Source: Citreicella sp. C3M06 (GTDB taxonomy: Bacteria; Pseudomonadota; Alphaproteobacteria; Rhodobacterales; Rhodobacteraceae). Taken from it: a stretch of 64,000 nt of DNA. Below the pieces are notes generated by a model, which was not told the DNA's origin, did not search any database, and saw only the letters and a program-made list of their open reading frames with translations. Every line of letters begins with the position of its first letter. The stretch's first letter is position 1. Shown here in pieces: positions 49,036 to 64,000 of this stretch. Position numbers and translations under genes: made by a program. The stretch is from NCBI RefSeq assembly GCF_018860705.1, contig NZ_JAHKQA010000047.1, forward strand, positions 186,001-250,000, given 5' to 3'.

Positions 49036-50643
49036 ATGACCATTTCTGCCTCGATCAAGGCGCTGAGCATCAGCGCGCTGATCGCCTCCTCGGCGGCCTT
49101 GCCCGCCATGGCGCAGTCGCGCAACGATGTGATCATTGCCGTGGGCGAACAGGGGCCGAACTCCCTTGACACCCAGACCCCCACATCAAACGACTACACC
49201 CGCATGGTGGCCTTGCAGGTCTATGACCGGCTGGTGAAACATGGCGTAAAGACGCTCGAAGACGGCACGCAAGTCTATGACAAGACCGTGGTTCTTCCCG
49301 AACTTGCCACCAGCTGGGAGGTCAGCGAGGATGGCAAGGAACTGACCTTCCATCTGCGTGATGACGCCACCTTTCACGATGGCTCGCCGGTCGAGGCCAA
49401 GGATGTCGAATGGTCCTTTGCCCGCGCCGTCGCCGCCGGGGGCTTTCCGCTGATCCAGATGGGCGCCGGGTCGATGACCGAGGCCGACCAGTTCGAAGCC
49501 GTCGACACCCACACGTTCAAAATTCATGTCCCCGATGGCAACAAGCTGGCGCTGCCGGATCTGACCACGCCGATCCCCATCGTGCTCAACTCCGACCTCG
49601 CGCTGGAACATGCCACCGAAGATGATCCTTGGGCGACCGAATGGCTGGCCAACAACACCGCCGGCGGCGGCGCCTATAATGTCGCGCGCTGGACGCCGGG
49701 CAACGAGATTGTCTTTCAGCGCTTTGACGACTGGAAGAACGGCGATCTGCCCGCGATGAAAACCGTGGTCTATCGCCAGATCGCCTCTGCCGGCACCCGT
49801 CGCGCCCTGCTGGAAAGCGGCGATGCGGATGTGTCCGTCGGCCTGCCCCCCAAGGATTTCGCCGAGCTAGGCGCAGGCGACAAGGTCAAGGTCATCGGCG
49901 TGCCCAAGCAATCGGCCATCGTGAACCTTGAGATGAACGTCACCATGCCGCCGTTCGACAACCCCTTGGTGCGCGAGGCGATGGCCTATGCCATTCCCTA
50001 TGATGCGATCATGGAAAACGCCTTTTATGGCCGCGCCACGCCGATGTATGGCGCCGACAGCACCGAGTATGACGCCGCATGGCCCGTGCCCAGCCCCTAT
50101 TCCACCGATCTGGACAAGGCCAAGGCGCTGCTGGCCGAAGCGGGCTATGCCGACGGGTTTGAAAGCACGATCTTTCTGGATTTGTCGCGCGCCACGGTGC
50201 GCGAACCGATTGCCCTGATGATCCAGCAGAACCTCAAGGAAATCGGCGTCGATGTGTCGATCGAAAAGGTGCCCGGCTCGAACTGGTTCTCCAAGATGTT
50301 GGAAAAATCCATGCCGATGGCGGTGACCAGCTTCCACGCATGGCTCGACTGGCCGGAATACCATTTCTACTGGACCTATTACGGCGCCAACAATTCGGTG
50401 TTCAACGTCGCCTCGCATGTGGATGACGCGCTGGATGCACAAATCCAGAAGGCCCGGTTTGAAACCGACCCCGATGCCTATGAGAGCGAAATCAAAAGCA
50501 TCATCGGCACCGTCATGACAGAGCTGCCCAAGATCCCGATCGCGCAGGATTACATGGACGTGGCGATGCAGAACGACATCGAAGGCTATGTCTACTGGTT
50601 CCACACCTTCCTTGATTTCCGCACCATCTCGCGCGCGGACTGA
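49036..50643 (+). CDS. Dpp-type ABC transporter, substrate-binding protein
   Basis: 535 residues from the ATG at 49036 (AGGAG 6 bases upstream). Sec signal peptide of about 26 residues ending PAMA. SBP family 5 fold: WEVSEDGKELTFHLRDDATFHDGSPVEAKDVEWSF, then PFDNPLVREAMAYAIPYD and DLDKAKALLAEAGY. This family binds di/oligopeptides, nickel chelates and other small solutes. Here the operon's amidohydrolases suggest a ureide or amide substrate. A hairpin follows the gene. Confidence 0.9.
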   Translation: MTISASIKALSISALIASSAALPAMAQSRNDVIIAVGEQGPNSLDTQTPTSNDYTRMVALQVYDRLVKHGVKTLEDGTQVYDKTVVLPELATSWEVSEDGKELTFHLRDDATFHDGSPVEAKDVEWSFARAVAAGGFPLIQMGAGSMTEADQFEAVDTHTFKIHVPDGNKLALPDLTTPIPIVLNSDLALEHATEDDPWATEWLANNTAGGGAYNVARWTPGNEIVFQRFDDWKNGDLPAMKTVVYRQIASAGTRRALLESGDADVSVGLPPKDFAELGAGDKVKVIGVPKQSAIVNLEMNVTMPPFDNPLVREAMAYAIPYDAIMENAFYGRATPMYGADSTEYDAAWPVPSPYSTDLDKAKALLAEAGYADGFESTIFLDLSRATVREPIALMIQQNLKEIGVDVSIEKVPGSNWFSKMLEKSMPMAVTSFHAWLDWPEYHFYWTYYGANNSVFNVASHVDDALDAQIQKARFETDPDAYESEIKSIIGTVMTELPKIPIAQDYMDVAMQNDIEGYVYWFHTFLDFRTISRAD

Positions 50644-50653
50644 CCCTGCCCTT

Positions 50654-50675
50654 GGGGGCGGCCCGCGTCGCCCCC
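50654..50675 (+). other. Intercistronic hairpin after the binding-protein gene
   Basis: GGGGGCG and CGCCCCC pair around 8 bases, 10 bases after the stop at 50643. Same arrangement as after ugpB; probably stabilises the binding-protein message. Confidence 0.6.
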
Positions 50676-50705
50676 TTCATGCCCTTTCCCGTTAGGAGCA
50701 GCCCC

Positions 50706-51398
50706 ATGACCTCGCATGTTTCGGGCCTTTATCCCTGGCCCTTCGACGGTGACTTGCGCCCAGAAAACACCGCCCTGATCATCATCGACATGCAGATCGA
50801 TTTCTGCGGCGTCGGTGGCTGGGTGCATTCGCGCGGGGTCGATCTGCGCAACACCCGGCGCGCCATTGCGCCGCTGCAAACCCTGCTGGACGTGCTGCGC
50901 CCCGCCGGGGTGACGATCATCCACACCCGCGAAGGCCACCGCCCCGATCTGAGCGACTTGCCCGCCAACAAGTTGTGGCGCTCGCAACAGCTGAACGGCA
51001 ATGGCATTGGCGCGCAGGGACCATTGGGGCGCTACCTGATCCGGGGCGAGCCGAACTGGGACATCATCCCCGAACTGGCCCCCGCCCCCGGAGAGATCAT
51101 CATCGACAAGCCCGGCAAGGGCGCCTTCATGGGCACCGATCTGGACACGGTGCTGCGCAACCGTGGCATCCGCAACCTGATGATCGCCGGGGTCACCACC
51201 GATTGCTGTGTGCAATCCACCCTGCGCGACGCCAATGACCGGGGCTTTGAATGCCTGCTGCTCGAGGATTGCTGCGGCGCCGCCACCCACGCCAACCATG
51301 ACGCACAGGTCGAGATGCTGCGCCTGTCCAACGGGCTGTACGGCTCGATATCGACATCGGGCGCGGTCATCGCCACCCTGACCGGAGCCGCCGCATGA
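50706..51398 (+). CDS. Biuret hydrolase-like cysteine hydrolase, paralogue 1
   Basis: 230 residues from the ATG at 50706 (TAGGAG upstream). Isochorismatase-fold amidohydrolase closely resembling biuret hydrolase BiuH: YPWPFDG at the start, IIIDMQIDFCG, HTREGHRPDLSDLPANK, RGEPNWDIIPEL, IDKPGKGAF and TTDCCVQST. The catalytic triad Asp28, Lys135 and Cys168 is intact with BiuH spacing. BiuH turns biuret into allophanate and ammonia. The stop overlaps the start of paralogue 2 (ATGA). The substrate may be a biuret relative rather than biuret itself. Confidence 0.85.
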   Translation: MTSHVSGLYPWPFDGDLRPENTALIIIDMQIDFCGVGGWVHSRGVDLRNTRRAIAPLQTLLDVLRPAGVTIIHTREGHRPDLSDLPANKLWRSQQLNGNGIGAQGPLGRYLIRGEPNWDIIPELAPAPGEIIIDKPGKGAFMGTDLDTVLRNRGIRNLMIAGVTTDCCVQSTLRDANDRGFECLLLEDCCGAATHANHDAQVEMLRLSNGLYGSISTSGAVIATLTGAAA

Positions 51399-52081
51399 CC
51401 GATTTTCCGCAAGTGAATTCAGCCCCCTACCCGTGGCCCTTTGACGGGCGGTTTGCACCCGCGAACACCGCCTTGATCATCATCGACATGCAGCGCGATT
51501 TCTGCGACCCCGATGGCTGGGTTGGCCAGCACGGCGCTGATGTGGCCCCGATGCGCGCCATGATCGCGCCGATCCGCGCGGTGCTGGACCGGATGCGCGA
51601 ACTGGGATTTCCGGTCATCCACACTCGCGAAGGCCACCGCCCCGATCTGGCCGATCTGAATGAAAACAAGCGCTGGCGCTCGGCGCGCGAGGGCGCTGAA
51701 ATTGGCACCACCGGCCCCTGCGGGCGGATGTTGACGCGGGGCGAGCCGGGCTGGGAAATCGTGCCCGAGCTGACGCCTTTGCCCGGCGAGCCGATCATCG
51801 ACAAGCCCGGCAAGGGCGCGTTTTACGCCACCGATCTGGAACAGATCCTGCACGCGCGCGGCATCCGCAACCTGATCTTTACCGGCGTCACCACCGATTG
51901 CTGTGTGCACACCACCATGCGCGACGCCAATGATCGCGGTTTTGAATGCATGTTGCTCGACGATTGCTGCGCCGCCTCGGCCCGGCATAACCACGCCGCG
52001 ATCCTGACGTTCACCACCATGGGCGACGGGCTGTTCGGCACCGTCGCGCCCTCGGCCCGGTTGTTCGAGGCGCTGGCATGA
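51395..52081 (+). CDS. Biuret hydrolase-like cysteine hydrolase, paralogue 2
   Basis: 228 residues, also of the BiuH group: PYPWPFDG, IIIDMQRDFCD, HTREGHRPDLADLNENK, RGEPGWEIVPEL, IDKPGKGAF and TTDCCVHTT. Triad Asp31, Lys137 and Cys170 is intact. In the central RGEPGW segment and in CGRMLTRG it is nearer the rhizobial BiuH pattern than paralogue 1. Two adjacent paralogues suggest a two-step or two-substrate scheme. Overlaps the permease start by 4 bp. Confidence 0.87.
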   Translation: MTDFPQVNSAPYPWPFDGRFAPANTALIIIDMQRDFCDPDGWVGQHGADVAPMRAMIAPIRAVLDRMRELGFPVIHTREGHRPDLADLNENKRWRSAREGAEIGTTGPCGRMLTRGEPGWEIVPELTPLPGEPIIDKPGKGAFYATDLEQILHARGIRNLIFTGVTTDCCVHTTMRDANDRGFECMLLDDCCAASARHNHAAILTFTTMGDGLFGTVAPSARLFEALA

Positions 52082-53091
52082 TCAAGCTGATCGCCAAGCG
52101 GTTCCTCAGCGCGCTGCCCAGCCTGATCGGGGTGATCATCGTCACCTTCGTGATCAGCCATTCGCTGCCCGGCGACCCGGCGGCCTATTTCGCAGGCCCC
52201 TCGGCCACGGCGGAATCGATCGCGGAAACCAAGGCGCGGCTGGGGCTGGACCAGCCGCTGCCAGTGCAATTCGTCGCCTATGTGGGCGATCTGATGCAGG
52301 GCGATCTGGGCCGCTCGTTCAATTCGGGCCAGCCGGTGCTGACCGACCTCATCCGCCGCCTGCCCGCGTCGTTCGAGCTGACGCTTTACGCGCTGGTGTT
52401 TGCGATTGTCGTCGCGGTGCCGCTGGGCCTGTGGGCGGCGGTCAATCCGGGGTCGTGGATCGACCATCTGTGCCGGGGCACGGTGACGGCGGCGGCGGCC
52501 TTCCCGTCGTTCTTTACCGCTCTGGTGCTGATTTTCGTGTTTTACTATAAACTTGGCTGGGCCCCGTCGCCCATCGGGCGGTTGGCGATCTACTTCCCGC
52601 TGCCCCCCACGATTACCGGCTTTTTCACCATCGACGCGCTGATCGCCGGGGATTTCGCCACCGCGCGCGCAGCGTTGGGGCAGCTTATCCTTCCTGCCAT
52701 CTCGCTGGGACTGTTCGCGCTGGCCCCGCTGGCGCGGATGACGCGCGCCTCGATGATCGGCGTGCTGGGCAGCGATTTCATCACCACCGCCAAAGCCGGA
52801 GGCCTGCCGCGCCGCACCATCCTGTGGACCTACGGGTTTCGCAACGCGCTGCTGCCGGTGGTCAATATCCTTGGCATGATCTTTTCCTTTCTGCTCGGGG
52901 CGAATGTGCTGATCGAACAGGTGTTTGGCTGGCCCGGCATCGGCTCTTACGCGGTCGAGGCGGTACTGACATCGGACTATGCCGCCATTCAGGGCTTTGT
53001 CGTGATGATGGCCATTCTCTACATCCTGCTCAATCTGGGCGTGGATATCCTCAACATGATCGTTGATCCAAGGGTGCGCTACGATGACTGA
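52078..53091 (+). CDS. DppB-type ABC transporter permease
   Basis: 337 residues, six or seven membrane segments. Family marks: KRFLSALPSLIGVIIVTFVISHSLPGDPA at the N-terminus, and the cytoplasmic loop ASMIGVLGSDFITTAKAGGLPRR before FRNALLPVVNILG. It forms the channel with the DppC-type partner. Overlaps both neighbours (4 bp upstream, 8 bp downstream). Confidence 0.93.
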   Translation: MIKLIAKRFLSALPSLIGVIIVTFVISHSLPGDPAAYFAGPSATAESIAETKARLGLDQPLPVQFVAYVGDLMQGDLGRSFNSGQPVLTDLIRRLPASFELTLYALVFAIVVAVPLGLWAAVNPGSWIDHLCRGTVTAAAAFPSFFTALVLIFVFYYKLGWAPSPIGRLAIYFPLPPTITGFFTIDALIAGDFATARAALGQLILPAISLGLFALAPLARMTRASMIGVLGSDFITTAKAGGLPRRTILWTYGFRNALLPVVNILGMIFSFLLGANVLIEQVFGWPGIGSYAVEAVLTSDYAAIQGFVVMMAILYILLNLGVDILNMIVDPRVRYDD

Positions 53092-53962
53092 CCAGATTGC
53101 CCATCCAGAGCCCTCGCGGCTGGCCAATATCTGGTCCGGCTTTGCCCATGCGATGAAAAGCAACCCGCTGACCGCCTTTGCCATGGCGCTGTTCTTGCTG
53201 TTCGTCATCGCCGCCGTGCTGGGGGAAACCATCGCGCCCTACGATCCGCTCGCCAGCACCGGGGCGACGCTGCAACCGCCCAGCTGGGCGCATCCCTTTG
53301 GCACCGACCAGCTGGGCCGCGACGTGCTGAGCCGCACCATCGTCGCCGCCCGCGTCGATTTCGGCATTGCCATCGCGGCGGTGTCGATCTCGTTCCTGCT
53401 TGGGCTCGGGCTGGGGGCGGCGGCGGGCTATTATGGCGGCTGGACCGACCGGATCGTGGGCCGCATGGTCGACACGATCATGGCCTTTCCGCTGTTCGTT
53501 CTGGCGATGGGGGTGGTGGCGGCGCTTGGCAACACGGTGTGGAACATCGTCTACGCCACCGCCATCATCAACCTGCCGTTTTACATCCGCTTTGCCCGCG
53601 CCGAGGTGAATTCCCGCCGCGATGCCGGTTTTGTCGAGGCCGCGCGCCTCAGCGGCAATGGCTCGGTGCGCATTCTGGCGGTGCATCTGGTGCCCAACAT
53701 CCTGCCGCCGATGATGGTGCAGGTGTCGCTGAACCTTGGCTGGGCGATCCTGAACGCGGCGGGGCTGTCGTTCATCGGGCTCGGGGTGCGCCCGCCGACC
53801 CCGGAATGGGGGATCATGGTGTCCGAAGGCGCCAATTACATCTTTTCGGGCGAGTGGTGGATCTTTTTCTTTCCCGGCATGGCGCTGGTGCTCGCGGTGT
53901 TCTGTTTCAACCTGCTGGGCGACGGGCTGCGCGACATCATCGATCCGAAAGGGCGCACATGA
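53084..53962 (+). CDS. DppC-type ABC transporter permease
   Basis: 292 residues from the ATG at 53084, which overlaps the DppB stop by 8 bp. N-terminal cytoplasmic segment, then HPFGTDQLGRDVLSR, the DppC hallmark, and the EAA loop RDAGFVEAARLSGNGSVRI. Second channel subunit of the importer. The stop overlaps the next start. Confidence 0.93.
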   Translation: MTDQIAHPEPSRLANIWSGFAHAMKSNPLTAFAMALFLLFVIAAVLGETIAPYDPLASTGATLQPPSWAHPFGTDQLGRDVLSRTIVAARVDFGIAIAAVSISFLLGLGLGAAAGYYGGWTDRIVGRMVDTIMAFPLFVLAMGVVAALGNTVWNIVYATAIINLPFYIRFARAEVNSRRDAGFVEAARLSGNGSVRILAVHLVPNILPPMMVQVSLNLGWAILNAAGLSFIGLGVRPPTPEWGIMVSEGANYIFSGEWWIFFFPGMALVLAVFCFNLLGDGLRDIIDPKGRT

Positions 53963-54930
53963 CCCCGTTGCTTGATATCCAGAACCTCAGCGTCGATTTC
54001 GCCACCCGTGACGGCACGGTGCATGCGCTGGAAAACGTCTCGTTCCAACTGGCGCGCGGCGAGACCATGGGCCTTGTCGGAGAAAGCGGCTCGGGCAAAT
54101 CGGTGTCGGCCTATGCGGTGATGCGGCTGCTGGGCGGCTCGGCGCGGGTGCGGGCGGATCGGATGATCTCGGGCGGGGTCGATTTGCTGACCGCCACCGA
54201 CGCCGAGGTCGCCGCCCTGCGCGGCAAGCGCATGACGATGATCTTTCAGAACGCCCGTTCGGCGCTGAACCCGATCCGCCCGATCGGGCAACAGATCGCC
54301 GATGTGCTGCGCGTTCACCGTGCCATGCCGCGGCGCGCCGCCAAACAGGCCGCCATCGCCGCCCTGGCCGAGGTGCGCATACCCGACCCCGAACGCCGCT
54401 ATCACGCCTATCCGTTCGAGCTGTCGGGCGGCATGTGCCAGCGGGTGATGATCGCGCTGGCCTTTGCCAGCGAGCCGGAACTGCTGATCGCGGATGAGCC
54501 GACCACTGGCTTGGATGTGACCACGCAGGCCGTCATCATGGACCTGATCCGCGAGAAATCCTCGCAGCGGCGCATGTCGACCATCCTGATCACCCATGAT
54601 CTGACGCTGGCGGCGGAATATTGCGACCGCTTCGCGGTGATGCACGCGGGCCATGTGGTGGAACAAGGCACCACTGCCGACATCTTTGAACGGGCAGCGC
54701 ACCCCTATACCGGCCTGCTGATGAAGGCGACGCCGCATGGCGCATCCAACCTGTCGGACCTTGCGGCGATCCCCGGATCGCTGCCCGATCTGCGCCGCGA
54801 TCTGCCGCCCTGCCGCTTTGTGCATCGCTGCGCGCACAGCGCCCCGGCCTGCGCCGCCGCCCTGCCGCGCGTGCCGCTAGAGCCCAGCCACGAGGTGTCC
54901 TGCCACATGCCATGGAAGGTTTCCGCATGA
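53959..54930 (+). CDS. DppD-type ABC transporter ATPase
   Basis: 323 residues from the ATG at 53959. Walker A GESGSGKS, signature LSGGMCQRVMIALA (Met-Cys in place of the usual Gln-Gln/Arg), Walker B LLIADEPTTGLD and switch THDLTLA. The C-terminal oligopeptide-transporter domain has CRFVHRCAHSAPAC, the family's Fe-S-like Cys motif. Partner of the DppF-type ATPase that follows. Confidence 0.92.
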   Translation: MTPLLDIQNLSVDFATRDGTVHALENVSFQLARGETMGLVGESGSGKSVSAYAVMRLLGGSARVRADRMISGGVDLLTATDAEVAALRGKRMTMIFQNARSALNPIRPIGQQIADVLRVHRAMPRRAAKQAAIAALAEVRIPDPERRYHAYPFELSGGMCQRVMIALAFASEPELLIADEPTTGLDVTTQAVIMDLIREKSSQRRMSTILITHDLTLAAEYCDRFAVMHAGHVVEQGTTADIFERAAHPYTGLLMKATPHGASNLSDLAAIPGSLPDLRRDLPPCRFVHRCAHSAPACAAALPRVPLEPSHEVSCHMPWKVSA

Positions 54931-55898
54931 GCGATCCGCTTCTTGAACTTGACGCCCTGCAAAAGATCTACCCCACCGGGTCGGGCCAGTTGCACGCGGT
55001 GGATGGCGTCAGCCTGACGCTGAACCGGGGCGAAAGCCTTGGGTTGGTAGGGGAATCCGGCTGCGGAAAATCAACGCTGGTGCGGGTGCTCGCCCGGCTG
55101 ATCGACCCGAGCGCCGGGGCGATCCGCATCGATGGGCAAAGCATCGGCGACATCCCCGCGCGGCGCTTTGGCACCCACCCGCAGCGCAAGCGCATTCAGG
55201 TGGTGTTCCAAGACCCGACCGATAGCCTCAACCCGCAGTTTCGCATCTTTGACAGCATCGCCGACCCGCTGCGCCGACTGGGCGGGCGCAAAACCCGCAC
55301 CGAGGTCAGCGACGCCGTGTACGAGGCCGCGCGCATCACCCGCCTGCCGCCCGAACTGCTGATGCGCTATCCCCACCAGCTATCGGGCGGCCAAAAGGCC
55401 CGCGTCGGCATTGCCCGTGCTATCATCTTGCGCCCCGATGTGCTGATCCTTGACGAGCCGACATCGGCGCTGGATGTGTCGGTGCAGGTGGTGATCCTGC
55501 AATTGCTGGGCGAATTGCGCGAAACGCTGGGCATGAGCTATCTGTTCGTCAGCCATGATCTGAACGTGGTCAAGCTGGTCTGCGACCGGGTGGCGGTGAT
55601 GTATCTGGGCAAGATCATAGAATGCGCCCCGGTGGATCAGATATTCGCGCGCCCCGCCCACCCCTATACCCGCGCGCTGCTCTCGGCCATTCCGGGGGCG
55701 CGCGACACCGCCCGCATCCGGCTGGACGGAGAGCCGCGCAGCCCCATCGACCCCGCCCCCAACGTCTGCCGTTTCTACGGGCGTTGCCCCATGGGTCAGG
55801 ATCTGTGCGCCCAAAAGGCCCCGCCCCTGACCAATATCGGCGCCCATTCCGCCGCCTGCCATTTCCGACTGGACACAAGACAAGAGGTGCTCGCATGA
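54927..55898 (+). CDS. DppF-type ABC transporter ATPase
   Basis: 323 residues from the ATG at 54927. Walker [11 protein letters not shown]-loop [12 protein letters not shown], signature [14 protein letters not shown], Walker [12 protein letters not shown] and switch SHDLNVV. The C-terminal Cys motif is [14 protein letters not shown]. The ATPase pair drives uptake. Overlaps its neighbours by 4 bp on each side. Confidence 0.93.
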
Positions 55899-57355
55899 GC
55901 CTGACCCATCAAGATTACGCCACCCTGTCCGCCGCCGAGATCGCCGAGGCGGTCGCGAGCGGCAAATATTCCGCTGCCGAGGTGAGCGAGGCCGCCATCG
56001 CCCGGATGGAGCTGACCGAGCCGCATCTGCACGCCTTCTGCAACCCCGCACCAGAGCTCGCGCGCAAAACCGCTGCCGCAATCGATGCGGCACGCGCGGC
56101 GGGTGAAACGCTGGGTCCGCTGGCGGGGGTGCCGGTGGGGATCAAGGATCTGGTCGCGACCAAGGATCTTGTCACCGCCATGGGCTCGACCATCTACCGC
56201 GACTTCCTGCCCGAAGACGACGATATCGTGGTCGAACGGCTAAAGGCCGCCGGCGCGGTGATCATCGGCAAGACCAACGTACCGGAGTTCGGCTACAGCG
56301 GCGTCGGCCACAACCCGGTGTTCGAAACCACGCGCAACCCGTGGAACACCGAATTGACGCCCGGCGGGTCCTCGGCCGGGTCGGGGGCATCGGTCGCGGC
56401 GGGGGTCACGCCTTTTGCCATCGGCTCGGATGGCGGCGGATCGGTGCGCATCCCCTCGGCCCATTGCGGGCTGGTCGGGGTCAAGGCGTCGATGGGCCGC
56501 GTGCCTTTGTGGCCCGGCTGCCGCGATGAACGCTTTCCCGGCGTATCCAGCTGGGAGAGCCTTGAACATATCGGCCCGATGGCGCGCACGGTATCCGACG
56601 CGGCCCTGATGCTGTCGGTGATCACCGGCCCTGACATGCGCGACCGCCACAGCATCCCGGCGGATGTGGACTGGCTGGAGGCGGCCAAGGCGGGCGATCT
56701 GCCCAAGCTGCGCATCGCCTTCAGCGAAGATTTCGGCTATCTGGCGGTCGACCCCGAGGTGCGCCGCGTGGTGCGCGAGGCCGCCGCGGTGTTCGAGCGT
56801 GATCTGGGCTGCGAGGTGGTCTCGGCCGATCCCGGCTGGAGCGATCCGGGCAATGATTTCTGGGGCCTCGTGCTGGCCGACAGCGACCTTGCCGGGATGC
56901 GCGCGTGGTTGCCCGAACACGGTGCCAACATGTCGCCGCATCTGGTGCAGATGTTACAGACCCGGCACGATGACGAGGCGCTGACCAATGCAAACATGGC
57001 CCGCAAAAAGCTGTGCAACATCGCGGCGCGGTTCTTTGGGCAGTACGATCTGCTGATCTCGCCGACGCTGACGGTGCCGCCCTTTGCGCTGCACATGCAG
57101 GGGCCGGAAAAGACCGAAGGGCGCATCGTCGATCCATCAGCCTGGCTGGGCTTCTGCTTTCCGTTCAACATGACCGGCCAGCCGGCGGCCTCGGTTCCGG
57201 CGGGGCTGACCAGCGATGGCCTGCCGGTGGGTTTGCAGATCATCGGGCGGCATCTGGACGACCCGCTGGTGCTGCGCGCCGCCGCCGCCTTCGAGACCGC
57301 GCGCCCGTGGTCGGCCCTGCGCCCGCCGTTGATCGACATGCTGGAAGGGGCGTAA
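55895..57355 (+). CDS. Amidase-signature hydrolase
   Basis: 486 residues from the ATG at 55895. Amidase-signature catalytic triad Lys84 (GIKD), Ser159 (PGGSSAG) and Ser183 (GGGSVRIP), spaced 75 and 24 residues as in active members. It resembles the GatA/aryl-amidase group rather than AtzE. It lies between the transporter and the atzG/atzE-like genes, so it likely acts on the imported compound or on a product amide. It is followed 3 bp later by the AtzG-like gene, which could be a small partner of this protein or of AtzE. Confidence 0.88.
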   Translation: MSLTHQDYATLSAAEIAEAVASGKYSAAEVSEAAIARMELTEPHLHAFCNPAPELARKTAAAIDAARAAGETLGPLAGVPVGIKDLVATKDLVTAMGSTIYRDFLPEDDDIVVERLKAAGAVIIGKTNVPEFGYSGVGHNPVFETTRNPWNTELTPGGSSAGSGASVAAGVTPFAIGSDGGGSVRIPSAHCGLVGVKASMGRVPLWPGCRDERFPGVSSWESLEHIGPMARTVSDAALMLSVITGPDMRDRHSIPADVDWLEAAKAGDLPKLRIAFSEDFGYLAVDPEVRRVVREAAAVFERDLGCEVVSADPGWSDPGNDFWGLVLADSDLAGMRAWLPEHGANMSPHLVQMLQTRHDDEALTNANMARKKLCNIAARFFGQYDLLISPTLTVPPFALHMQGPEKTEGRIVDPSAWLGFCFPFNMTGQPAASVPAGLTSDGLPVGLQIIGRHLDDPLVLRAAAAFETARPWSALRPPLIDMLEGA

Positions 57356-57358
57356 CCC

Positions 57359-57568
57359 ATGGCCCATACCGTTGACGACGCCCGCCGCGCGCTGGCTGCG
57401 CTTGGCTTTCACCCTGCCGCAGACCGTCTGCCTGCCATCGCCGCGATCCTTGATCAGAACGCGGCGGCGGTCAGCGTGGTGATGAACGCGCCGCTGCGCC
57501 CGGCTTGCGAAAACGCCCCGGTGTGGCGTGTGCCGGTCTGGGACCAAAGCGGAAAGGACACCGCATGA
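57359..57568 (+). CDS. AtzG-like small subunit (DUF4089)
   Basis: 69 residues, close to the length of AtzG (about 68). The pattern is that of DUF4089: two amphipathic helices, DDARRALAALGFHPAADRLPAIAAIL and a following Asn/Ala-rich helix, then a Pro-rich tail with PVWRVP. AtzG is a GatC-like small subunit required for a stable AtzE amidase. The stop overlaps the AtzE-like start (ATGA), which supports a complex between the two. Identity is by size, pattern and position. Confidence 0.75.
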   Translation: MAHTVDDARRALAALGFHPAADRLPAIAAILDQNAAAVSVVMNAPLRPACENAPVWRVPVWDQSGKDTA

Positions 57569-58977
57569 CGACCGCCTGGATCGACCTTTCCGCCCATGAA
57601 ATCGCGGCACAGGTCCGCAGTGGCACCATGACCGCGCGCCAATCGGTGCAGGCGGCGCTGGCGCGCCTGCGTGAAACCGACCCCGGCCTGATCGCATTCA
57701 CCACCGTGACCGAGGCCCGCGCCCTTGCCCGCGCCGATGCCATCGACGCACAGCTTGCCGCGGGGCAGGATCCCGGCCCGCTCACCGGCGTTCCCTTCGC
57801 GGTCAAGGATCTGGTGGATGTGGCTGGCGTGATCACGCGCGCAGGATCGAAGATCAACCTCGACAATGCCCCCGCAAGCGCCGATGCTCCGGTTGTCACC
57901 CGGCTGGAAGCGGCGGGCGGCATTCTCATCGGCGCGCTGAACATGGGCGAATATGCTTATGATTTCACCGGAGAAAACGCCCATGTCGGGTCCACCCGCA
58001 ACCCGCGCGACCCGTCGCGGCGCTCTGGTGGGTCATCGGGCGGGTCGGGCGCGGCGGTCGCCGCGGGCATGGTGCCGCTAGCCGTGGGGTCCGATACCAA
58101 CGGGTCGATCCGGGTGCCATCGAGCTGGTGCGGGCTGTTCGGGCTCAAGGCGACCTATGGGCGGGTGCCGCGCACCGGCACCTTTCCCTTTGTCGACAGC
58201 TTCGATCACATCGGCCCGATGGCGCGCTCTGTGCAGGATCTCGCCATCGCGCTGGAGGCGATGCAGGGCGTCGATGCAGGCGATCCGGCAAGCCAAGACC
58301 ACCCGCCCTGCCCGGCGCTGAGCACGCTTGAAACCGGCATCGACGGGCTGCGCCTTGCCCGCGGCGCCGGGCATTTCGCCCCCGCCCCCGGCCCCGCCAA
58401 GGACGCGCTGGATCGTTGCTGCGCCGCGCTTGGCATCACCGCCGAGATCACCGTGCCGGGCGTGGCCGAGGCCCGCGCCGCCGCGATGATCATCACCGCG
58501 GTCGAAGGCGCGGCGACGCATGTGGAATCGCTGCAAACCCGCCCCGAGGATTTTGGCGCCCCGATCCGCGACCGTCTGATCGCGGGCGCGCTGATCCCCG
58601 GCGTGGCCTATGTGCGCGCGCAGCGCCTGCGCCGCCAGTTTGCCGAAGATATGGCCCGCGTGTTCGAAAGCATCGATGCGATCCTTGTGCCCACCACGCC
58701 TTTTGCCGCGCCGCCCATCGACGATGACATGATCGTGGTGAACGGGCGGCCCGAGAATTACCGCGCCCATATCGGCCCCTATGTGCAGCCCATCAGCTTT
58801 ATTGGTCTGCCGGTGGTGTCGGTCCCGGTGCAGAACGCCGACGGGGCGCTGCCCATCGGCGTGCAGATCATCGCGCCGCCTTGGCGCGAAGACATCGCCC
58901 TGCGTATCGCCCGCGCGCTGGAAGCCTCTGGCACCTGCGCCGCCCCCACTGCCCAGATCAAAGAGACCACCGCATGA
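57565..58977 (+). CDS. AtzE-family amidohydrolase
   Basis: 470 residues. Amidase-signature triad Lys81 (AVKD), Ser157 (SGGSSGGSG) and Ser181 (NGSIRVP). It tracks 1-carboxybiuret amidohydrolase AtzE over its length: GSKINLDNAP, LNMGEYAYDFTGENAHVG, TYGRVPRTGTFPFV, FDHIGPMARS, the C-terminal YVQPISFIGLPVVSVPVQ and PPWREDIAL. AtzE removes ammonia from 1-carboxybiuret; HpxX of oxalurate use is a relative. No cyanuric acid hydrolase (AtzD) is in the window, so the natural substrate may be another ureide. Overlaps atzG- and atzH-like genes by 4 bp each. Confidence 0.88.
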   Translation: MTTAWIDLSAHEIAAQVRSGTMTARQSVQAALARLRETDPGLIAFTTVTEARALARADAIDAQLAAGQDPGPLTGVPFAVKDLVDVAGVITRAGSKINLDNAPASADAPVVTRLEAAGGILIGALNMGEYAYDFTGENAHVGSTRNPRDPSRRSGGSSGGSGAAVAAGMVPLAVGSDTNGSIRVPSSWCGLFGLKATYGRVPRTGTFPFVDSFDHIGPMARSVQDLAIALEAMQGVDAGDPASQDHPPCPALSTLETGIDGLRLARGAGHFAPAPGPAKDALDRCCAALGITAEITVPGVAEARAAAMIITAVEGAATHVESLQTRPEDFGAPIRDRLIAGALIPGVAYVRAQRLRRQFAEDMARVFESIDAILVPTTPFAAPPIDDDMIVVNGRPENYRAHIGPYVQPISFIGLPVVSVPVQNADGALPIGVQIIAPPWREDIALRIARALEASGTCAAPTAQIKETTA

Positions 58978-59372
58978 CCCGCGACGACATCAACCTGCCC
59001 GGCCCGCTGGCCGAAATCACCGCCGCCTTCAACCGTTATGAGGCGGCGCTGATCGGCAATGACGTCGAGGTGCTCGACGAGCTGTTCCTGATCGATGCGC
59101 GCACCATTCGCTATGGCATCGCCGAGAACCTCTATGGCCACGCCGAGATCGCGGAATTTCGCGCCTCGCGTCCCGCAACCGGGCATGAGCGCAGGCTGGA
59201 TCGCACGGTCATTACCTCTTATGGCAGCGATTTCGCCACGGCGATGACCCTGTTCCACCGGGGCGGCGGCGATCGCATCGGGCGGCAATCGCAGACATGG
59301 GCCCGCATCGATGGCAACTGGCGCATCGTCGCGGCCCATGTCAGCGTCATTCCAACCCCGGAGGCTGTATGA
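58974..59372 (+). CDS. AtzH/HpxZ-like protein (DUF3225)
   Basis: 132 residues, NTF2-like fold. Marks of DUF3225: NRYEAALIGNDVEVLDELFLID, IRYGIAENLYGHAEI, FRASRP, TVITSYGSDFATAMTLF, IGRQSQTWARIDGNWRIVAAHVS. AtzH of Pseudomonas has been reported to convert 1,3-dicarboxyurea toward allophanate; HpxZ belongs to oxalurate catabolism. The gene order AtzG-AtzE-AtzH matches both settings. Overlaps the AtzE-like and GntR genes by 4 bp. Confidence 0.88.
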   Translation: MTRDDINLPGPLAEITAAFNRYEAALIGNDVEVLDELFLIDARTIRYGIAENLYGHAEIAEFRASRPATGHERRLDRTVITSYGSDFATAMTLFHRGGGDRIGRQSQTWARIDGNWRIVAAHVSVIPTPEAV

Positions 59373-60058
59373 GCGACACACCCCCACCGCTGCGCCTTGC
59401 CCCCGGCGAAACCCGCACCGCCGCGCTGGTGCGCGAGCTGAGCGCGCAGATCGTTTCGGGCAAGCTGCCACCGGGGAAGAAACTGGACGAAGCCGCCATC
59501 GGCGATCTTTTCGGCCTGTCGCGCACCCCCGTGCGCGAGGCGCTGCGCGAGCTGGCGGTGATCGGTCTGGTCGAAACCCGCCCGCATCGCGGCGCCTATG
59601 TGGCCGAGGTCTCGACCGCGCAGATGATGGAAAAGTTCGAATTCATGGCCGAACTCGAAGGTCTGTGCGCCGGCTATGCCGCCCGTCGCATGACAGTGGA
59701 TGACAAGGCGCGGCTCGACAAGATCCACGATGGCGGCATGGTGCTGGTCGAACGCCGCGACCGGGCAGGATATCGCGCCCACAACACGATCCTGCACGAG
59801 GCCATCTATGAGGGGGCCCGCAACGACAGCTTGCGCGACGCCACCCTGTCGATCCGCCGCGCGGTGGCCGCCTTTCGCGCCGCGCAGTTCGATCTCAAGG
59901 AACGGATCGGCAATTCGCAGGTCGAACATGGGCTGATCATTGCCGCGATCCGCGCTGGCGATGCGGATCAGGCGAGCCAGCTGATGCGCCGCCATATCCT
60001 GACCGTGATGCAGGCCGCCGAGGCTTATCTGCGCGAAAAACGCGTGATCCCCATCTGA
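59369..60058 (+). CDS. GntR-family regulator (FadR/FCD) inside the operon
   Basis: 229 residues from the ATG at 59369, overlapping the AtzH-like stop. Winged helix at about residues 15-75 with KLDEAAIGDLFGLSRTPVREALREL and an FCD effector domain with EFMAELEGLCAGYAARRM, NTILHEAIYEGARN and the metal-type His residues in LRRAVAAFRAAQFD and QVEHGLIIAAI. Probably controls this operon from within, in response to an intermediate. It is the only regulator in the cluster. Confidence 0.9.
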   Translation: MSDTPPPLRLAPGETRTAALVRELSAQIVSGKLPPGKKLDEAAIGDLFGLSRTPVREALRELAVIGLVETRPHRGAYVAEVSTAQMMEKFEFMAELEGLCAGYAARRMTVDDKARLDKIHDGGMVLVERRDRAGYRAHNTILHEAIYEGARNDSLRDATLSIRRAVAAFRAAQFDLKERIGNSQVEHGLIIAAIRAGDADQASQLMRRHILTVMQAAEAYLREKRVIPI

Positions 60059-60073
60059 CAAAAGGCCCCAGCA

Positions 60074-60487
60074 ATGACCTCTTCTTCCCCCGACACCCTG
60101 CTGTTGGCCGTCTGCGGCGCGCATATGCGCGGCATGGCGCTTGAATCCCAGATGCAGAGCTGCGGCGCGCGCTATGACAGCGATGCGCAAACCGATGACA
60201 GCTATCGGTTCTACGCGCTGACCGCCAAGGACCCGATCCGCCCCGGCCTGATCCGGGGCATGCCGGGCAGCGGCGCGCCGATCGCGGTCGAACTGTGGGC
60301 GATCTCACCCGCCGGGCTGGGCAGGCTGATGAGTATGATCGACGCGCCCCTTGGCATCGGCACCGTGACGCTGTCCGACACGCGCCGGGTCAAAGGCTTT
60401 GTCTGCGAAGCCATCGCCGCCACGGCGGATGCGCAGGACATCACCGAGCTTGGCTCTTGGCGCCGCTTTCTCGCGACCCGAACATAA
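60074..60487 (+). CDS. Stand-alone C-terminal domain of allophanate hydrolase (AtzF-C)
   Basis: 137 residues matching only the C-terminal, gamma-glutamylcyclotransferase-like domain of AtzF: LLAVCGAHMRGMALESQM, YRFYALTAKDPIRPGLIR, APIAVELWAI, GLGRLMSMIDAPLGIGTVTLSDTRRVKGFVCE and DITELGSWRRFLATR. In known AtzF this domain follows the amidase in one chain. Here it is a separate gene placed 10 bp before the amidase gene. It has no amidase residues and likely assembles with the next product. Confidence 0.87.
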   Translation: MTSSSPDTLLLAVCGAHMRGMALESQMQSCGARYDSDAQTDDSYRFYALTAKDPIRPGLIRGMPGSGAPIAVELWAISPAGLGRLMSMIDAPLGIGTVTLSDTRRVKGFVCEAIAATADAQDITELGSWRRFLATRT

Positions 60488-60497
60488 AGGACCCCCC

Positions 60498-61913
60498 ATG
60501 ACCAATTCCCCTTGGGACCGCGCCACCGGCGCGCTGGATATCGCCACGCTCAAGGCCTGTTATGCCGATGGCCGCCTGACACCGGAAACCCTGATCGACG
60601 CGATTTATGACCGCATCGCCGCGCGCGGCGAGGATCACGTCTGGATTCACCTGATCGCGCGAGAGACATCAAAGGCGCGCGCCCGTGCGCTGATGGCCGA
60701 CCCTTGCGCCGTCGATCTGCCACTGTATGGCATCCCTTTCGGCATCAAGGACAATATCGATCTGGCGGGCCTGCCCACAACCGCCGCCGTGCGCGCCTGG
60801 GCCCGGATGGCCGACACCACCAGCCCCTTGGTGCAAACCCTGCTGGATGCGGGCGCCATCCCCATCGGCAAGCAGAATCAGGACCAGCTGGGCATGGGCG
60901 TGGTCGGCGTGCGCAGCGATTATGGCATCCCGCAATGTTGCTTTGACAGCCGTTACATCAGCGGCGGGTCGACCTCGGGCGGGGGTGTCAGCGTCGGTGC
61001 GGGGCTGGTCAGCTTTGCGGTGGCCAATGATGCCGCCGGATCGGGCCGGGTGCCCGCCGCGCTGAACAATATCGTGGGCTACAAACCAACGCCGGGGCTG
61101 ATCCCGCGGGCGCGGGCCTCATTGGCGGGGATGGTGGGCACCGAGAATTTCCTGACCCTGACCATGGCCGACAGCGTGCTGCTGACAAACCTGTGGTTCG
61201 CCTATGAGCCGAGCGATCCGTTTTCCAAACCGCAAGCCGATGGGTTTCGCATCACCACCAACCCCGCCCCCGACACGTTCCGTTTTGCCATTCCCGATGA
61301 GGCGACGCTGGACACCGATGGCGATGGCGACTCCGAACGGCTGTTTCGCGAAAACGTCGCGCGGCTGTGCGCGCTTGGCGGCACGGCGGTGCCGATCGAC
61401 ATGACGCCCTATCTGACAGCGGCCCGGATGCTGTATGACGGCCCGTTCATCGCGCAGCGCTATGCCAATTTTGGCGATAAGTTCGATGGCGACGAAGACG
61501 CGCTATGCCCCGCCACCCGCGAAATCCTGTCATGGGGGCGCAACTATACCGCCCGCGACGTGTTCAAGGCGCAATATGTCATTGCCGGCTACAAGCAGCA
61601 GATCCGCGCGCTGTTCAAGGATGTCGATCTGCTGGTCACGCCGACCTCGCCGTCGACCTATACGATCGAGGCGGTGCTCGCGGACAATATCGCGCTGAAT
61701 GCCAGAATGGGCACCTATACCAACTTTGTGAACCTGCTCGATCTGCCCGCCGTGTCGATCCCCGCAGGGTTTCGCAAAGATGGCATTCCGCTGGGCACCA
61801 TGCTGATCGGCCCGTCGCTGGGCGACGATCTGATTTGCCGCATCGGCGGGGCGCTGCATGCCGCACTTGGCATTGCGCCGGGGATAGCAGGCAGACCCGC
61901 GCCCGCCGCCTAA
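60498..61913 (+). CDS. atzF: Allophanate hydrolase amidase domain (AtzF-N)
   Basis: 471 residues from the ATG at 60498. Amidase triad Lys84 (FGIKD), Ser158 (SGGSTSGG) and Ser182 (AAGSGRVPA), at the same 74- and 24-residue spacing as AtzF. Other marks are NIVGYKPTPGLIPRA and FVNLLDLPAVSIPAG. It lacks the C-terminal domain, which is a separate gene just upstream. Allophanate hydrolase splits allophanate to ammonia and CO2. The 3' end overlaps the convergent HAD gene by 4 bp. Confidence 0.88.
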   Translation: MTNSPWDRATGALDIATLKACYADGRLTPETLIDAIYDRIAARGEDHVWIHLIARETSKARARALMADPCAVDLPLYGIPFGIKDNIDLAGLPTTAAVRAWARMADTTSPLVQTLLDAGAIPIGKQNQDQLGMGVVGVRSDYGIPQCCFDSRYISGGSTSGGGVSVGAGLVSFAVANDAAGSGRVPAALNNIVGYKPTPGLIPRARASLAGMVGTENFLTLTMADSVLLTNLWFAYEPSDPFSKPQADGFRITTNPAPDTFRFAIPDEATLDTDGDGDSERLFRENVARLCALGGTAVPIDMTPYLTAARMLYDGPFIAQRYANFGDKFDGDEDALCPATREILSWGRNYTARDVFKAQYVIAGYKQQIRALFKDVDLLVTPTSPSTYTIEAVLADNIALNARMGTYTNFVNLLDLPAVSIPAGFRKDGIPLGTMLIGPSLGDDLICRIGGALHAALGIAPGIAGRPAPAA

Positions 61914-62539
61914 GCCCAGCCCACGCCCAGCATCGGGGGAATGTCGCGCAGCCCGGAGATCTCCTGCGCACCGGGTTGTGGCAGTCCCAGAGCAGCAACA
62001 GCGAGCCCGGCAGCAAGCGCTGACAGCACCCCGGTGGCGCTGTCCTCGACCGCGAGAACCTGCGCTGGCGGCAGGCCGAGTGCGCGCGCGCCGCGCTCAT
62101 AGGGCTCGGGGTCGGGCTTGCCGTTGCGCACATCGTCCAGCGAGATCGACGTCGTCAACAGCTCGGCCACGCCAAGCGCCGCCAGATTGGCATCCACCAC
62201 CTGCCGCCCGGAATTCGACACCGCAACCTGCGGCACCCCGGCCTGTGCCAGCGCCCGGATCACCGCGACCGCATCGGGGATCTGGCAAAGCTCCTGCGCG
62301 CGCGCGACATAGCTGTTCTGGATCGCCTCCATCCATGCCGCGCCCGACAGCCCCTTGGGCAGATCCGGGGCAAGGGCGGCCCAGACATCCTGTATATGCA
62401 CCCCAAGGAACCGGTCGACCGGATCGTCACGCAGATCCAGCCCGTGCGACAGGCAAACGTCGATCAGCACCCGGTGGTGCAACGGCTCGCTGTCCACAAG
62501 CGTGCCATCGATGTCCCATGCCACACCGCGCAGCCTCAT
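61910..62539 (-). CDS. HAD-superfamily phosphatase
   Basis: 209 residues of the beta-phosphoglucomutase/phosphatase branch. Motif I DIDGTLVDSE, cap domain (about 16-85), motif II VSNSG, motif III Lys in NGKPDPEPYE, motif IV VEDSATGV. It dephosphorylates a small sugar phosphate or isomerises one. It overlaps the FGGY kinase by 4 bp and probably belongs to a carbohydrate operon that continues to the right of the window. Confidence 0.88.
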   Translation of the reverse strand: MRLRGVAWDIDGTLVDSEPLHHRVLIDVCLSHGLDLRDDPVDRFLGVHIQDVWAALAPDLPKGLSGAAWMEAIQNSYVARAQELCQIPDAVAVIRALAQAGVPQVAVSNSGRQVVDANLAALGVAELLTTSISLDDVRNGKPDPEPYERGARALGLPPAQVLAVEDSATGVLSALAAGLAVAALGLPQPGAQEISGLRDIPPMLGVGWA

Positions 62540-64000
62540 GCCCGCATGCCTTTCAGCCGCGCGTATAGCTCGTGATAGCGCGCATAGCCCGCATCATAGA
62601 CCGCGCGGTTTTCAGCCCGTGGCTGGATCAGCTCGGCGTTGGACACAAAGGCGGAAATCCCGTGCCAATCGGCCAGATCGCAGCCCACCGCAGCGGTCCA
62701 CGCCGCGCCAAGGCACGACCCCGGATGGCTGCCGAGCCGCTGCACCGGCGCGCCGATGATATCGGCGACGATCTGCATCCAGACCCCACTGGCCGCGCCG
62801 CCATCCGACACCAGAAAGCGTTGCGGCTCGTGCCCCATGTCGCGCAGCACATCGACGTGATGGCGCAGCGCATAGCCATAGCTTTCCAGCACCGCCCGCC
62901 ACAGATGGCCCAAGCTATGCGACAGGGTCAGGCCTTCGATCACGCCGCGCGCCGCAGGATCGTGGATCGGAGTCTTTTCGCCCAGAAAAAACGGCAGCAC
63001 GCTCAGATCGTCGGCCCCCGCAGCCACCGCATCAGCAAGGCGGTCCAGCCCTGCATGGGGGGACCCGCCGAAATCGCGCCCCTCGCAAAAGGTGCGCACA
63101 AACCAGTTCAGCACCGACCCGCCGGTCGACATGCAGCCGTTGGGCATGAACAGCCCCGGAATAAGATGGTAATCCAGATACAGCCGCGCATCGGGAACCG
63201 GCTGATCGGTCGCGGTCATCACATCGACCGCCCCGCCGAATTTCAGCAACACATCCCCCGCTTGCGTCACCCCGGCCCCCAGCGCCGAGGCGATCATGTC
63301 TGCCGCGCCCCCCGTCACCGGGGTTCCGACGGCAAGCCCGGTGGCGGCGGCGGCGGCGGCGCTTACATGGCCCTGCACCGCAGTGCTTTCGATCCGGGGC
63401 GGCAGCGCCTCCCACGGCACGCCGGTCATCTCGGCCAGTTCAGGCGACAGGGCTGCGGTGGCGATTTCGGTCACGCCCGCCTCCAGCGCCCAGTTCTGTT
63501 CCACGGTTTTCACCTCGGTCAGGCGCCAGTTGATGTAATCGTAGGATCCAAACACCGTGGCGATGCGCGCGTGGATGTCAGGTTCGTGCCGGGCCAGCCA
63601 GCGCAGCTTGGCCCCGACAAGCTGCTGGTTCACACCATTGCCAGCGCGGGCGAGAAACGCGTCCTCGTCGATCTCATTGCGCAGCTCGGTGACCTCGGCG
63701 CCGCAGCGCCCGTCGCTTTGCTGGATCGACGGGCGCAATACGGCGCCGTCCTCATCCAGTAGCACCACGGCGGGCAGCATCCCCGAAGTGCCGATGGCGG
63801 CGATCTCACCGGCCTCGCGCCCGGTTTCGGCCAGCAGCTCCGGCACGATCTCGCAGACGTTGCGCCACCAGTCGGCGGGGTCTTCTTCGGCCCAGCCCGG
63901 GTGGGGCGAGCGCAAGGTCACCGGGCGCGAAGCCACCGCAAGGATGCGGTCGGGCAATTCCAGCAGCAGGCCGATGGTCGAGGTGGTGCCAATATCAAGG
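62536..64000 (-). CDS. FGGY-family carbohydrate kinase, 5' end cut by the window
   Basis: 488 residues visible; the N-terminus reads LDIGTTSTIGLLLELPDR at the window edge, so the start lies just outside. Two-domain FGGY kinase: IGTSGMLPAVVLLDEDGAVL and YDYINWRL in domain 1, and GGAADMIASALGAG, KFGGAVDV, GGSVLNWFVRTFCEG, SHSLGHLWRAVLESYGYALRHHVD and VSDGGAASGVWMQIVADIIGAPV in domain 2. Xylulokinase- or gluconokinase-type; the sugar is not clear. Transcribed into the HAD gene with a 4-bp overlap. Confidence 0.9.
   Translation of the reverse strand, partial: LDIGTTSTIGLLLELPDRILAVASRPVTLRSPHPGWAEEDPADWWRNVCEIVPELLAETGREAGEIAAIGTSGMLPAVVLLDEDGAVLRPSIQQSDGRCGAEVTELRNEIDEDAFLARAGNGVNQQLVGAKLRWLARHEPDIHARIATVFGSYDYINWRLTEVKTVEQNWALEAGVTEIATAALSPELAEMTGVPWEALPPRIESTAVQGHVSAAAAAATGLAVGTPVTGGAADMIASALGAGVTQAGDVLLKFGGAVDVMTATDQPVPDARLYLDYHLIPGLFMPNGCMSTGGSVLNWFVRTFCEGRDFGGSPHAGLDRLADAVAAGADDLSVLPFFLGEKTPIHDPAARGVIEGLTLSHSLGHLWRAVLESYGYALRHHVDVLRDMGHEPQRFLVSDGGAASGVWMQIVADIIGAPVQRLGSHPGSCLGAAWTAAVGCDLADWHGISAFVSNAELIQPRAENRAVYDAGYARYHELYARLKGMRA

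Follow-up and report, generated by a model that had tools for sequence, protein, structure and literature searches.

We analysed a 64,000-nucleotide stretch of the Citreicella sp. C3M06 genome, hereafter the window (C79:186001-250000; the source genome comprises 5.0 Mb in 106 contigs and is 96.14% complete), which carries a candidate operon for the uptake and hydrolysis of a ureide. Fourteen contiguous genes on the + strand span 49036-61913, in the order SBP, IHL1, IHL2, DppB, DppC, DppD, DppF, Ami, AtzG, AtzE, AtzH, GntR, AH_C, AtzF. Overlaps occur at nine of the 13 junctions (eight of 4 nt and one of 8 nt), and the remaining four are gaps of 62, 3, 15 and 10 nt. A preliminary description of this DNA had counted 13 tightly spaced or overlapping genes; the tight spacing holds, and the count is 14. 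Families were set by NCBIfam and Pfam profiles, each with its own cut-off, and the profile scores confirmed the Dpp-type importer, the amidase, the AtzG-, AtzE- and AtzH-like proteins, the GntR/FCD regulator and the split AtzF named there.

The importer consists of a family-5 (Dpp-type) periplasmic binding protein (SBP, 535 amino acids, 49036..50643; PF00496, 305.9 bits), permeases of the DppB type (337 amino acids, 52078..53091; PF00528, PF19300) and DppC type (292 amino acids, 53084..53962; PF00528, PF12911), and ATPases of the DppD and DppF types (323 amino acids each, 53959..54930 and 54927..55898; both PF00005 and PF08352). SBP reaches no NCBIfam equivalog cut-off, and the scores against the Dpp equivalog models stay low (DppA model 90.6, cut-off 1005; DppB model 248.2, cut-off 590) within the same superfamily. 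Two isochorismatase-like cysteine hydrolases lie between SBP and the permeases: IHL1 (230 amino acids, 50706..51398) and IHL2 (228 amino acids, 51395..52081). Downstream of the ATPases comes Ami (486 amino acids, 55895..57355), an amidase-signature hydrolase with the amidase motifs present (PF01425, 375.4 bits; PRK06169, 424.5 bits, below the cut-off of 506). The regulator (229 amino acids, 59369..60058; PF00392, PF07729) stands between AtzH and AH_C.

Between Ami and the regulator is a module resembling AtzG, AtzE and AtzH. The AtzE-family amidohydrolase (470 amino acids, 57565..58977) passes both of its models (TIGR02715, 583.6 against a cut-off of 425.75; PRK09201, 612.9 against 461). Directly upstream of it lies the gene for an AtzG-like small subunit (69 amino acids, 57359..57568) with a weak match (PF13318, 16.9 bits, E 0.0086, below the cut-off of 24); the Salipiger counterpart passes at 25.4. 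The AtzH/HpxZ-like protein (132 amino acids, 58974..59372; PF11533) scores 180.3 against a cut-off of 135 for NF033625, and it keeps in the alignment Tyr22 and Arg46, two residues described for AtzH (PMC6219798). AtzD (PF09663) had no match in the source genome, where a copy could lie in the missing part, and the same search scores 490.6 bits on pADP-1. This supports the earlier statements that AtzD is absent and that the entry compound is not cyanuric acid by the known AtzD route. The atzDGEHF cyanuric acid operon of Pseudomonas sp. ADP (pADP-1) has the same atzG-atzE-atzH order and a downstream allophanate hydrolase; it differs in possessing AtzD, in place of which a hydrolase pair and an importer stand upstream here, and its AtzE is only 48% identical to ours.

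The last two genes encode the C-terminal domain of allophanate hydrolase as a separate protein (AH_C, 137 amino acids, 60074..60487; PF21986, 145.8 bits) and the amidase domain of the same enzyme (AtzF, 471 amino acids, 60498..61913). AtzF alone scores 455.2 bits (PRK08186) and 409.7 bits (TIGR02713), and both allophanate-hydrolase cut-offs are passed only when it is joined with AH_C (617.7 against 487, and 569.0 against 511.05). AH_C is likewise separate and upstream of AtzF in four relatives. A sequencing frameshift was considered as the cause of the split and rejected, because a separate AH_C gene is present in all conserved relatives; the split was found in Salipiger, Roseivivax, a Rhodobacteraceae genome, Falsigemmobacter and Roseomonas. 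The earlier proposal of a nitrogen operon ending at allophanate is supported, and we consider it highly probable that this is an allophanate-ending ureide operon.

The two hydrolases deserve closer attention. IHL1 and IHL2 are 58% identical to each other, and each is 60-62% identical to the BiuH encoded elsewhere in the same genome. On the curated BiuH model (NF050097, cut-off 370) both fall short, at 326.1 and 346.1 bits, whereas the genome's own downstream BiuH passes at 413.6. We compared five IHL1 and five IHL2 sequences with 33 BiuH and 15 TrtA-type sequences, and aligned the altered copies of gut bacteria described below as well. Residues are numbered after Rhizobium leguminosarum BiuH (from PMC5806882 and PMC7948467), with positions 53, 147 and 200 counted along our alignment. 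The counts cover 62 of 68 sequences; six (L034, L035, L064, L129_14276, L006 and L007) fitted none of the five groups and were excluded, among which L035 and L064 have Cys174 but also Asn145 and Glu215. Eleven further matches of the relatives search have no locus of their own; one is the IHL2 of the window, and the ten others, second matches (42-49% identity) in other genomes, lie outside the alignment. Eleven E. coli plasmids among the matches listed (H88-H98) encode an isochorismatase-like hydrolase 47.7% identical to IHL2.

The catalytic Asp36, Lys142 and Cys175 of BiuH are present in all ten IHL sequences, as are Phe41, Lys145, Thr171 and Asp173. Gln215 is invariant in BiuH (33/33) and TrtA (15/15) and occurs in none of the ten; IHL1 has Ser (four sequences, including that of the window) or Met (one, from Falsigemmobacter) at this position, and all five IHL2 have Gly. 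Tyr47 is replaced by Trp and Val174 by Cys in 10/10, Tyr53 by Val, Ala, Ser or Gly, Ser147 by Ala in nine and Val218 by Leu in eight. Position 218 is thus Leu in most IHL1/IHL2, Ile in TrtA and Val in BiuH, and Ala147 is common to TrtA and nine of the ten IHL sequences. Seven TrtA residues (Gln202, Glu160, Phe35, Asn41, Tyr187, Ile205 and Ala134, in TrtA numbering) are all found in 15/15 TrtA-type sequences; of these, IHL1/IHL2 have Ala134 in nine of ten and Ile205 in one. By sequence, then, IHL1 and IHL2 are neither BiuH nor TrtA, and the preliminary description of two BiuH-like hydrolases is right about the family (isochorismatase-like, close to BiuH) and needs qualification as to the curated score and the substrate-binding Gln215. 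A search for TrtA-type proteins found them in other genomes of the family and none in the source genome, where its three matches are IHL1, IHL2 and BiuH.

In both BiuH and TrtA, the partner subunit contributes a Gln that grips the substrate at its far end (PMC5806882, PMC7948467), and the Gln215Ala change in BiuH lowers kcat/KM from 149742 to 357 (PMC5806882). The Ile that TrtA has at BiuH position 218 has been tied to the outward placing of this Gln (PMC7948467). Ala at 147 alone says little, because TrtA tolerates A134S (PMC7948467). Taken together, the loss of Gln215 and Tyr53, with Ala147 and mostly Leu218, suggests a longer or wider pocket for a substrate longer than biuret, and the operon probably serves something larger than biuret.

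The arrangement is conserved beyond this genome. Plasmid pTPRO1 of Salipiger profundus has the identical 14-gene order, with proteins 68-95% identical to those of the window and the same HAD and FGGY-kinase genes behind it, and the 14-gene order recurs in Roseivivax sediminis (L062) and an uncultured Rhodobacteraceae genome (L063). Falsigemmobacter faecalis (L061) has 11 of the genes at 46-73% identity (SBP, IHL1, IHL2, DppBCDF, Ami, GntR, AH_C and AtzF). Such recurrence, complete in three genomes or records besides the source and as a core of 11 genes in one more, is more than chance. Behind the operon, at 61910-63999 (-) of the window, stand HAD phosphatase and FGGY kinase genes, which Salipiger, Roseivivax and the Rhodobacteraceae genome also have at this place; their neighbours in Salipiger are genes for sugar transport. 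The main text of the Salipiger strain paper has no mention of allophanate, biuret or ureides (PMC5071866).

The Falsigemmobacter locus separates a core from an added part. Only 74 bp separate the Ami and GntR matches, where AtzG, AtzE and AtzH would sit. AtzE was not found in a genome-wide search, the best match of which (208 bits) falls on the Ami gene, and AtzG and AtzH were not found at the locus. The core therefore consists of the importer, the IHL pair, the amidase and the split AtzF, and since Falsigemmobacter has it without AtzG, AtzE and AtzH, these three form a module added to it, or were lost in Falsigemmobacter. The Falsigemmobacter genome shows no BiuH-grade match besides the pair, and the lone core implies that, there, IHL1, IHL2, Ami and AtzF may be enough. 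We rejected the Atz-like module as the heart of the pathway because it is absent from the Falsigemmobacter locus.

A conventional biuret locus also lies nearby, judging from its gene families, 8-11 kb past the operon and outside the window (L011:9026-12519, C79:256025-259518). It comprises an AtzF amidase domain, a LysR gene, BiuH and a cupin. The AtzF amidase domain there is divergent, lies about 8 kb past the operon end and passes alone (607, above 487). The BiuH, at C79:258509, is about 20 kb from the IHL pair and 10.6 kb past the operon end; on pTPRO1, BiuH likewise lies about 21 kb downstream of its IHL pair. The earlier suggestion of biuret as the entry compound is weakened by this locus and by the absence of the biuret-binding Gln from both hydrolases, and on these grounds we rejected biuret as the main substrate.

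A similar alteration occurs in gut bacteria. An exact-motif scan of 84,980 species genomes, which may omit records near the source genome, returned ten stretches, of which three are tandem pairs (Falsigemmobacter, Roseivivax and one Rhodobacteraceae genome) and the other seven are single copies, each in a different genome. In Avimonas (L054), a member of the Clostridia (L058) and Ruminococcus (L052), the altered hydrolase lies directly 5' of a BiuH that passes the cut-off, a protein of about 145 amino acids (a cupin in L054 and L052) and AtzF. A BMP-type binding protein precedes such loci (checked in L054 and L058), and in Treponema (L056) the contig ends inside a BiuH-like piece adjoining the altered hydrolase. 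The Ruminococcus copy (L052:5720-6433, -) contains an in-frame TAG and is probably broken. The position before BiuH and AtzF is that of the kind of partner TrtA has, and by this analogy we count these loci for a triuret-type reading. The remaining two single copies (L055/L065 and L059/L064) have Cys174 but also Asn145 and Glu215, and lie apart in the tree.

The gut copies and IHL1/IHL2 have in common Cys174, Ala147, Leu218 and a small residue at 215. A tree built without the five signature columns joins the gut copies to gut BiuH (96/85) and separates them from IHL1 and IHL2. The approximately unbiased test speaks against one common origin of the Cys174 type (p-AU 0.021) and does not reject the smaller unions (0.094 for a clade of IHL1 plus IHL2, 0.101 for IHL1 together with the gut type); it is weakened by our having defined the groups only once a first tree was at hand. 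Convergence of the gut and IHL1/IHL2 types appears likely, short of proof.

Relatives of the importer point towards allophanate as well. SBP relatives (E <= 1e-110; at most three candidates scored per genome, so that further copies may be missed) occur in 30 of 385 genomes of the class and 20 of 390 of the order, the source genome being counted in both. Among all 55 importer loci besides our own, each fetched at 6.6-20 kb, AtzF is present in 35, BiuH in 11, AtzE in eight, AtzH in seven, TrtA in three and Ami in two; AtzD and hydrolases of the IHL1/IHL2 type are found in none. AtzF lies less than 300 bp from the Dpp ATPase gene on the same strand in 20 of them. By our estimate, which sets a 20 kb region against a genome of 4-5 Mb, chance alone would place a given gene there about 0.4-0.5% of the time. 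This importer clade is thus often found with allophanate hydrolase. A minimal SBP-DppB-DppC-DppDF-AtzF unit stands in L136, L137, L149, L150, L154 and similar loci, with none of the upstream enzymes looked for, and often has a neighbour of about 300 amino acids from a family that includes a LysR regulator.

A connection between triuret-type hydrolases and AtzE is seen elsewhere. TrtA makes carboxybiuret, the substrate of AtzEG, which deaminates it (PMC7948467). TrtA-type proteins and AtzE occur in one locus in Terrarubrum (L047), Microvirga (L050), Paroceanicella (L049), Azospirillum (L014, about 7.5 kb apart on opposite strands) and genome G285 (L129), and AtzD has no match in these five loci as fetched. 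As a check on the assignment of the type, the L039 TrtA-type protein matches the TrtA structure 6XIX at 306 bits. By analogy, this co-location supports a role for carboxybiuret in connecting an isochorismatase-like hydrolase with AtzEG. We found no statement on TrtA-AtzE clusters without AtzD in the passages and search listings covered, which take in few subscription papers, such as those on the genome context of biuret. Three of the clusters have a 'regulator' of 527-533 amino acids beside TrtA (L047:8334-9935, L049:10190-11773, and L050, 76% identical to the L047 copy). The L047 and L049 copies have no Pfam or NCBIfam match and the L047 copy no PDB match; the protein is possibly an undescribed enzyme of the triuret route.

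On this basis we infer nitrogen scavenging by uptake and hydrolysis of a triuret-sized ureide, by way of carboxybiuret and allophanate, and give this reading as a whole a probability of about 0.42; its central element, a triuret-sized substrate degraded through carboxybiuret, is held tentatively. The compound taken up by the Dpp-type importer would be a ureide that exceeds biuret in length, most likely triuret itself or a triuret-like compound that bears a cap or a substituent. Ami might remove a cap or handle a related amide, which is a guess. IHL1 would then hydrolyse a terminal amide to give carboxybiuret, which could go two ways: AtzEG would release the next ammonia and AtzH would decarboxylate 1,3-dicarboxyurea to allophanate, or, once carboxybiuret had lost CO2, IHL2 would produce allophanate, standing where other pathways have BiuH. 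AtzF and the separate AH_C protein would convert allophanate to ammonia and CO2, and GntR would regulate the operon. The preliminary description had also named a carboxylated biuret as a possible import. Since carboxybiuret loses its carboxyl group with a half-life of about 20 min (PMC7948467), it is more plausible as an intermediate within the pathway than as the import.

Several observations weigh against this triuret-type route. IHL1 and IHL2 are without the Gln with which TrtA holds triuret, and without its E160 and Y187. Three genomes (G198, G199 and G201) carry the IHL pair and no BiuH passing the cut-off, unlike the source genome and the Salipiger plasmid. The gut copies retain Tyr53 and Thr200, which IHL1/IHL2 do not, and the 8 kb locus of one gut-type altered hydrolase (L051) contains no BiuH and no AtzF. 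As for the importer, 20 of the 55 loci are without AtzF, AtzE, TrtA and BiuH (L127, L135 and L169 among these are only 6.6-10.4 kb, the rest longer), and the two closest importers of the 55 (L144 and L145) have neither AtzF nor the hydrolase pair in the fetched DNA.

The last of these observations bears on the alternative that we rate next, although unlikely, in which the entry compound is a ureide other than a polyurea, for instance one resembling hydantoins or N-carbamoyl amino acids, or a formyl or acyl urea, and IHL1, IHL2 and Ami free from it a piece that is finally turned into allophanate. The closest importer of the 55 (L144, 58%; L144:2887-13758) lies in an apparent operon of GntR, an Asp/Glu/hydantoin racemase family gene, an amidohydrolase and an arylmalonate-decarboxylase family gene, followed by the importer and an Ami relative. 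Because importer and Ami relative follow a hydantoin racemase family gene there, other ureides stay in consideration, and any larger substrate would accord with the altered pocket. However, L144 and L145, which have no hydrolase pair or AtzF in the fetched DNA (the L144 contig stops 1 kb past the Ami relative), need not share the substrate of our operon, and AtzF is the commonest neighbour of the importer clade among the genes looked for. Rather improbable is a biuret operon in which IHL1 and IHL2 are duplicated, specialised biuret hydrolases that bind biuret without Gln215. Their 60-62% identity to a BiuH and the retention of Asp36, Lys142, Cys175, Phe41 and Lys145 would fit, and since G198, G199 and G201 have the pair and no other BiuH-grade match, the two might be biuret hydrolases of another design. 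Against this stand the invariance of Gln215 in BiuH and TrtA and its absence from all ten IHL sequences, the steep loss of activity in Gln215Ala (PMC5806882), and the separate BiuH of the source genome and the Salipiger plasmid.

The AtzG/E/H module could also be an HpxXYZ-like oxalurate module in an operon for oxalurate or purine breakdown products. The HpxWXYZ oxalurate cluster known from Klebsiella has counterparts of AtzG, AtzE and AtzH in HpxX, an AtzE-family protein and HpxZ, and its gamma-glutamyltransferase is named HpxW. AtzH in the window scores as HpxZ. The AtzE tree, which has a very long outgroup, unites AtzD-linked AtzE with HpxY and places the window AtzE apart from both, outside the HpxY branch, and so does not decide between carboxybiuret and oxalurate for this protein. 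No gamma-glutamyltransferase is found among the operon proteins or in the annotated Salipiger operon, AtzF is present here, and for oxalurate AtzF and AH_C should be superfluous. The core, with AtzF and AH_C, persists in Falsigemmobacter without AtzG, AtzE and AtzH, which weakens the earlier proposal of oxalurate as the entry compound, and we regard this explanation as distinctly improbable. That a peptide or general importer stands by accident beside unrelated hydrolases is the most improbable alternative; the subunits do fall below the NCBIfam equivalog cut-offs shown above, but the genes overlap, three relatives conserve them gene for gene, and AtzF is near 35 of the 55 related importers.

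The operon can be set beside described systems. The trtA/biuH/atzF pathway for triuret and biuret (with trtB in some) of Herbaspirillum sp. BH-1 and Rhizobium leguminosarum 3841 likewise has two isochorismatase-like hydrolases with an allophanate hydrolase in one operon, and carboxybiuret and allophanate as likely intermediates (PMC7948467); here neither hydrolase has the TrtA or BiuH pocket, and a Dpp-type importer, AtzG/E/H, an extra amidase and a split AtzF are present. Clusters of atzG-atzE-atzH with allophanate hydrolase, ABC transporters and amidases have been described in beta-proteobacteria (Esquirol et al. 2018, PMC6219798). The portion of that paper covered names no isochorismatase-like pair and places allophanate hydrolase upstream, whereas AtzF is split and downstream here. 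The Atz-like module beside a dedicated importer, put forward in the preliminary description as a pathway not known as such, is in part already published. Each enzyme family is known; what is new, as far as we searched, is the altered pair and its tandem conservation, the dispensable Atz module and the link between importer and AtzF.

We put at even odds the wider proposal that IHL1 and IHL2 constitute a third, undescribed type in the biuret/triuret hydrolase family (Cys174, no Gln215, usually Leu218), whose two members work jointly on a ureide so far not recognised as a source of nitrogen for bacteria, with a similar change that apparently arose separately in gut bacteria beside a true BiuH; together with the AtzF-tied Dpp-type importers and the AtzD-free TrtA-AtzE clusters, they would form a second triuret-type route, one in which biuret is bypassed. 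The literature covered assigns no source of carboxybiuret to AtzG/E/H clusters that lack AtzD, and the presence of AtzG/E/H with TrtA-type or altered hydrolases suggests triuret-like compounds as this source. The altered pocket and its likely repeated origin make these hydrolases a defined target for finding new urea-like nitrogen sources of bacteria.

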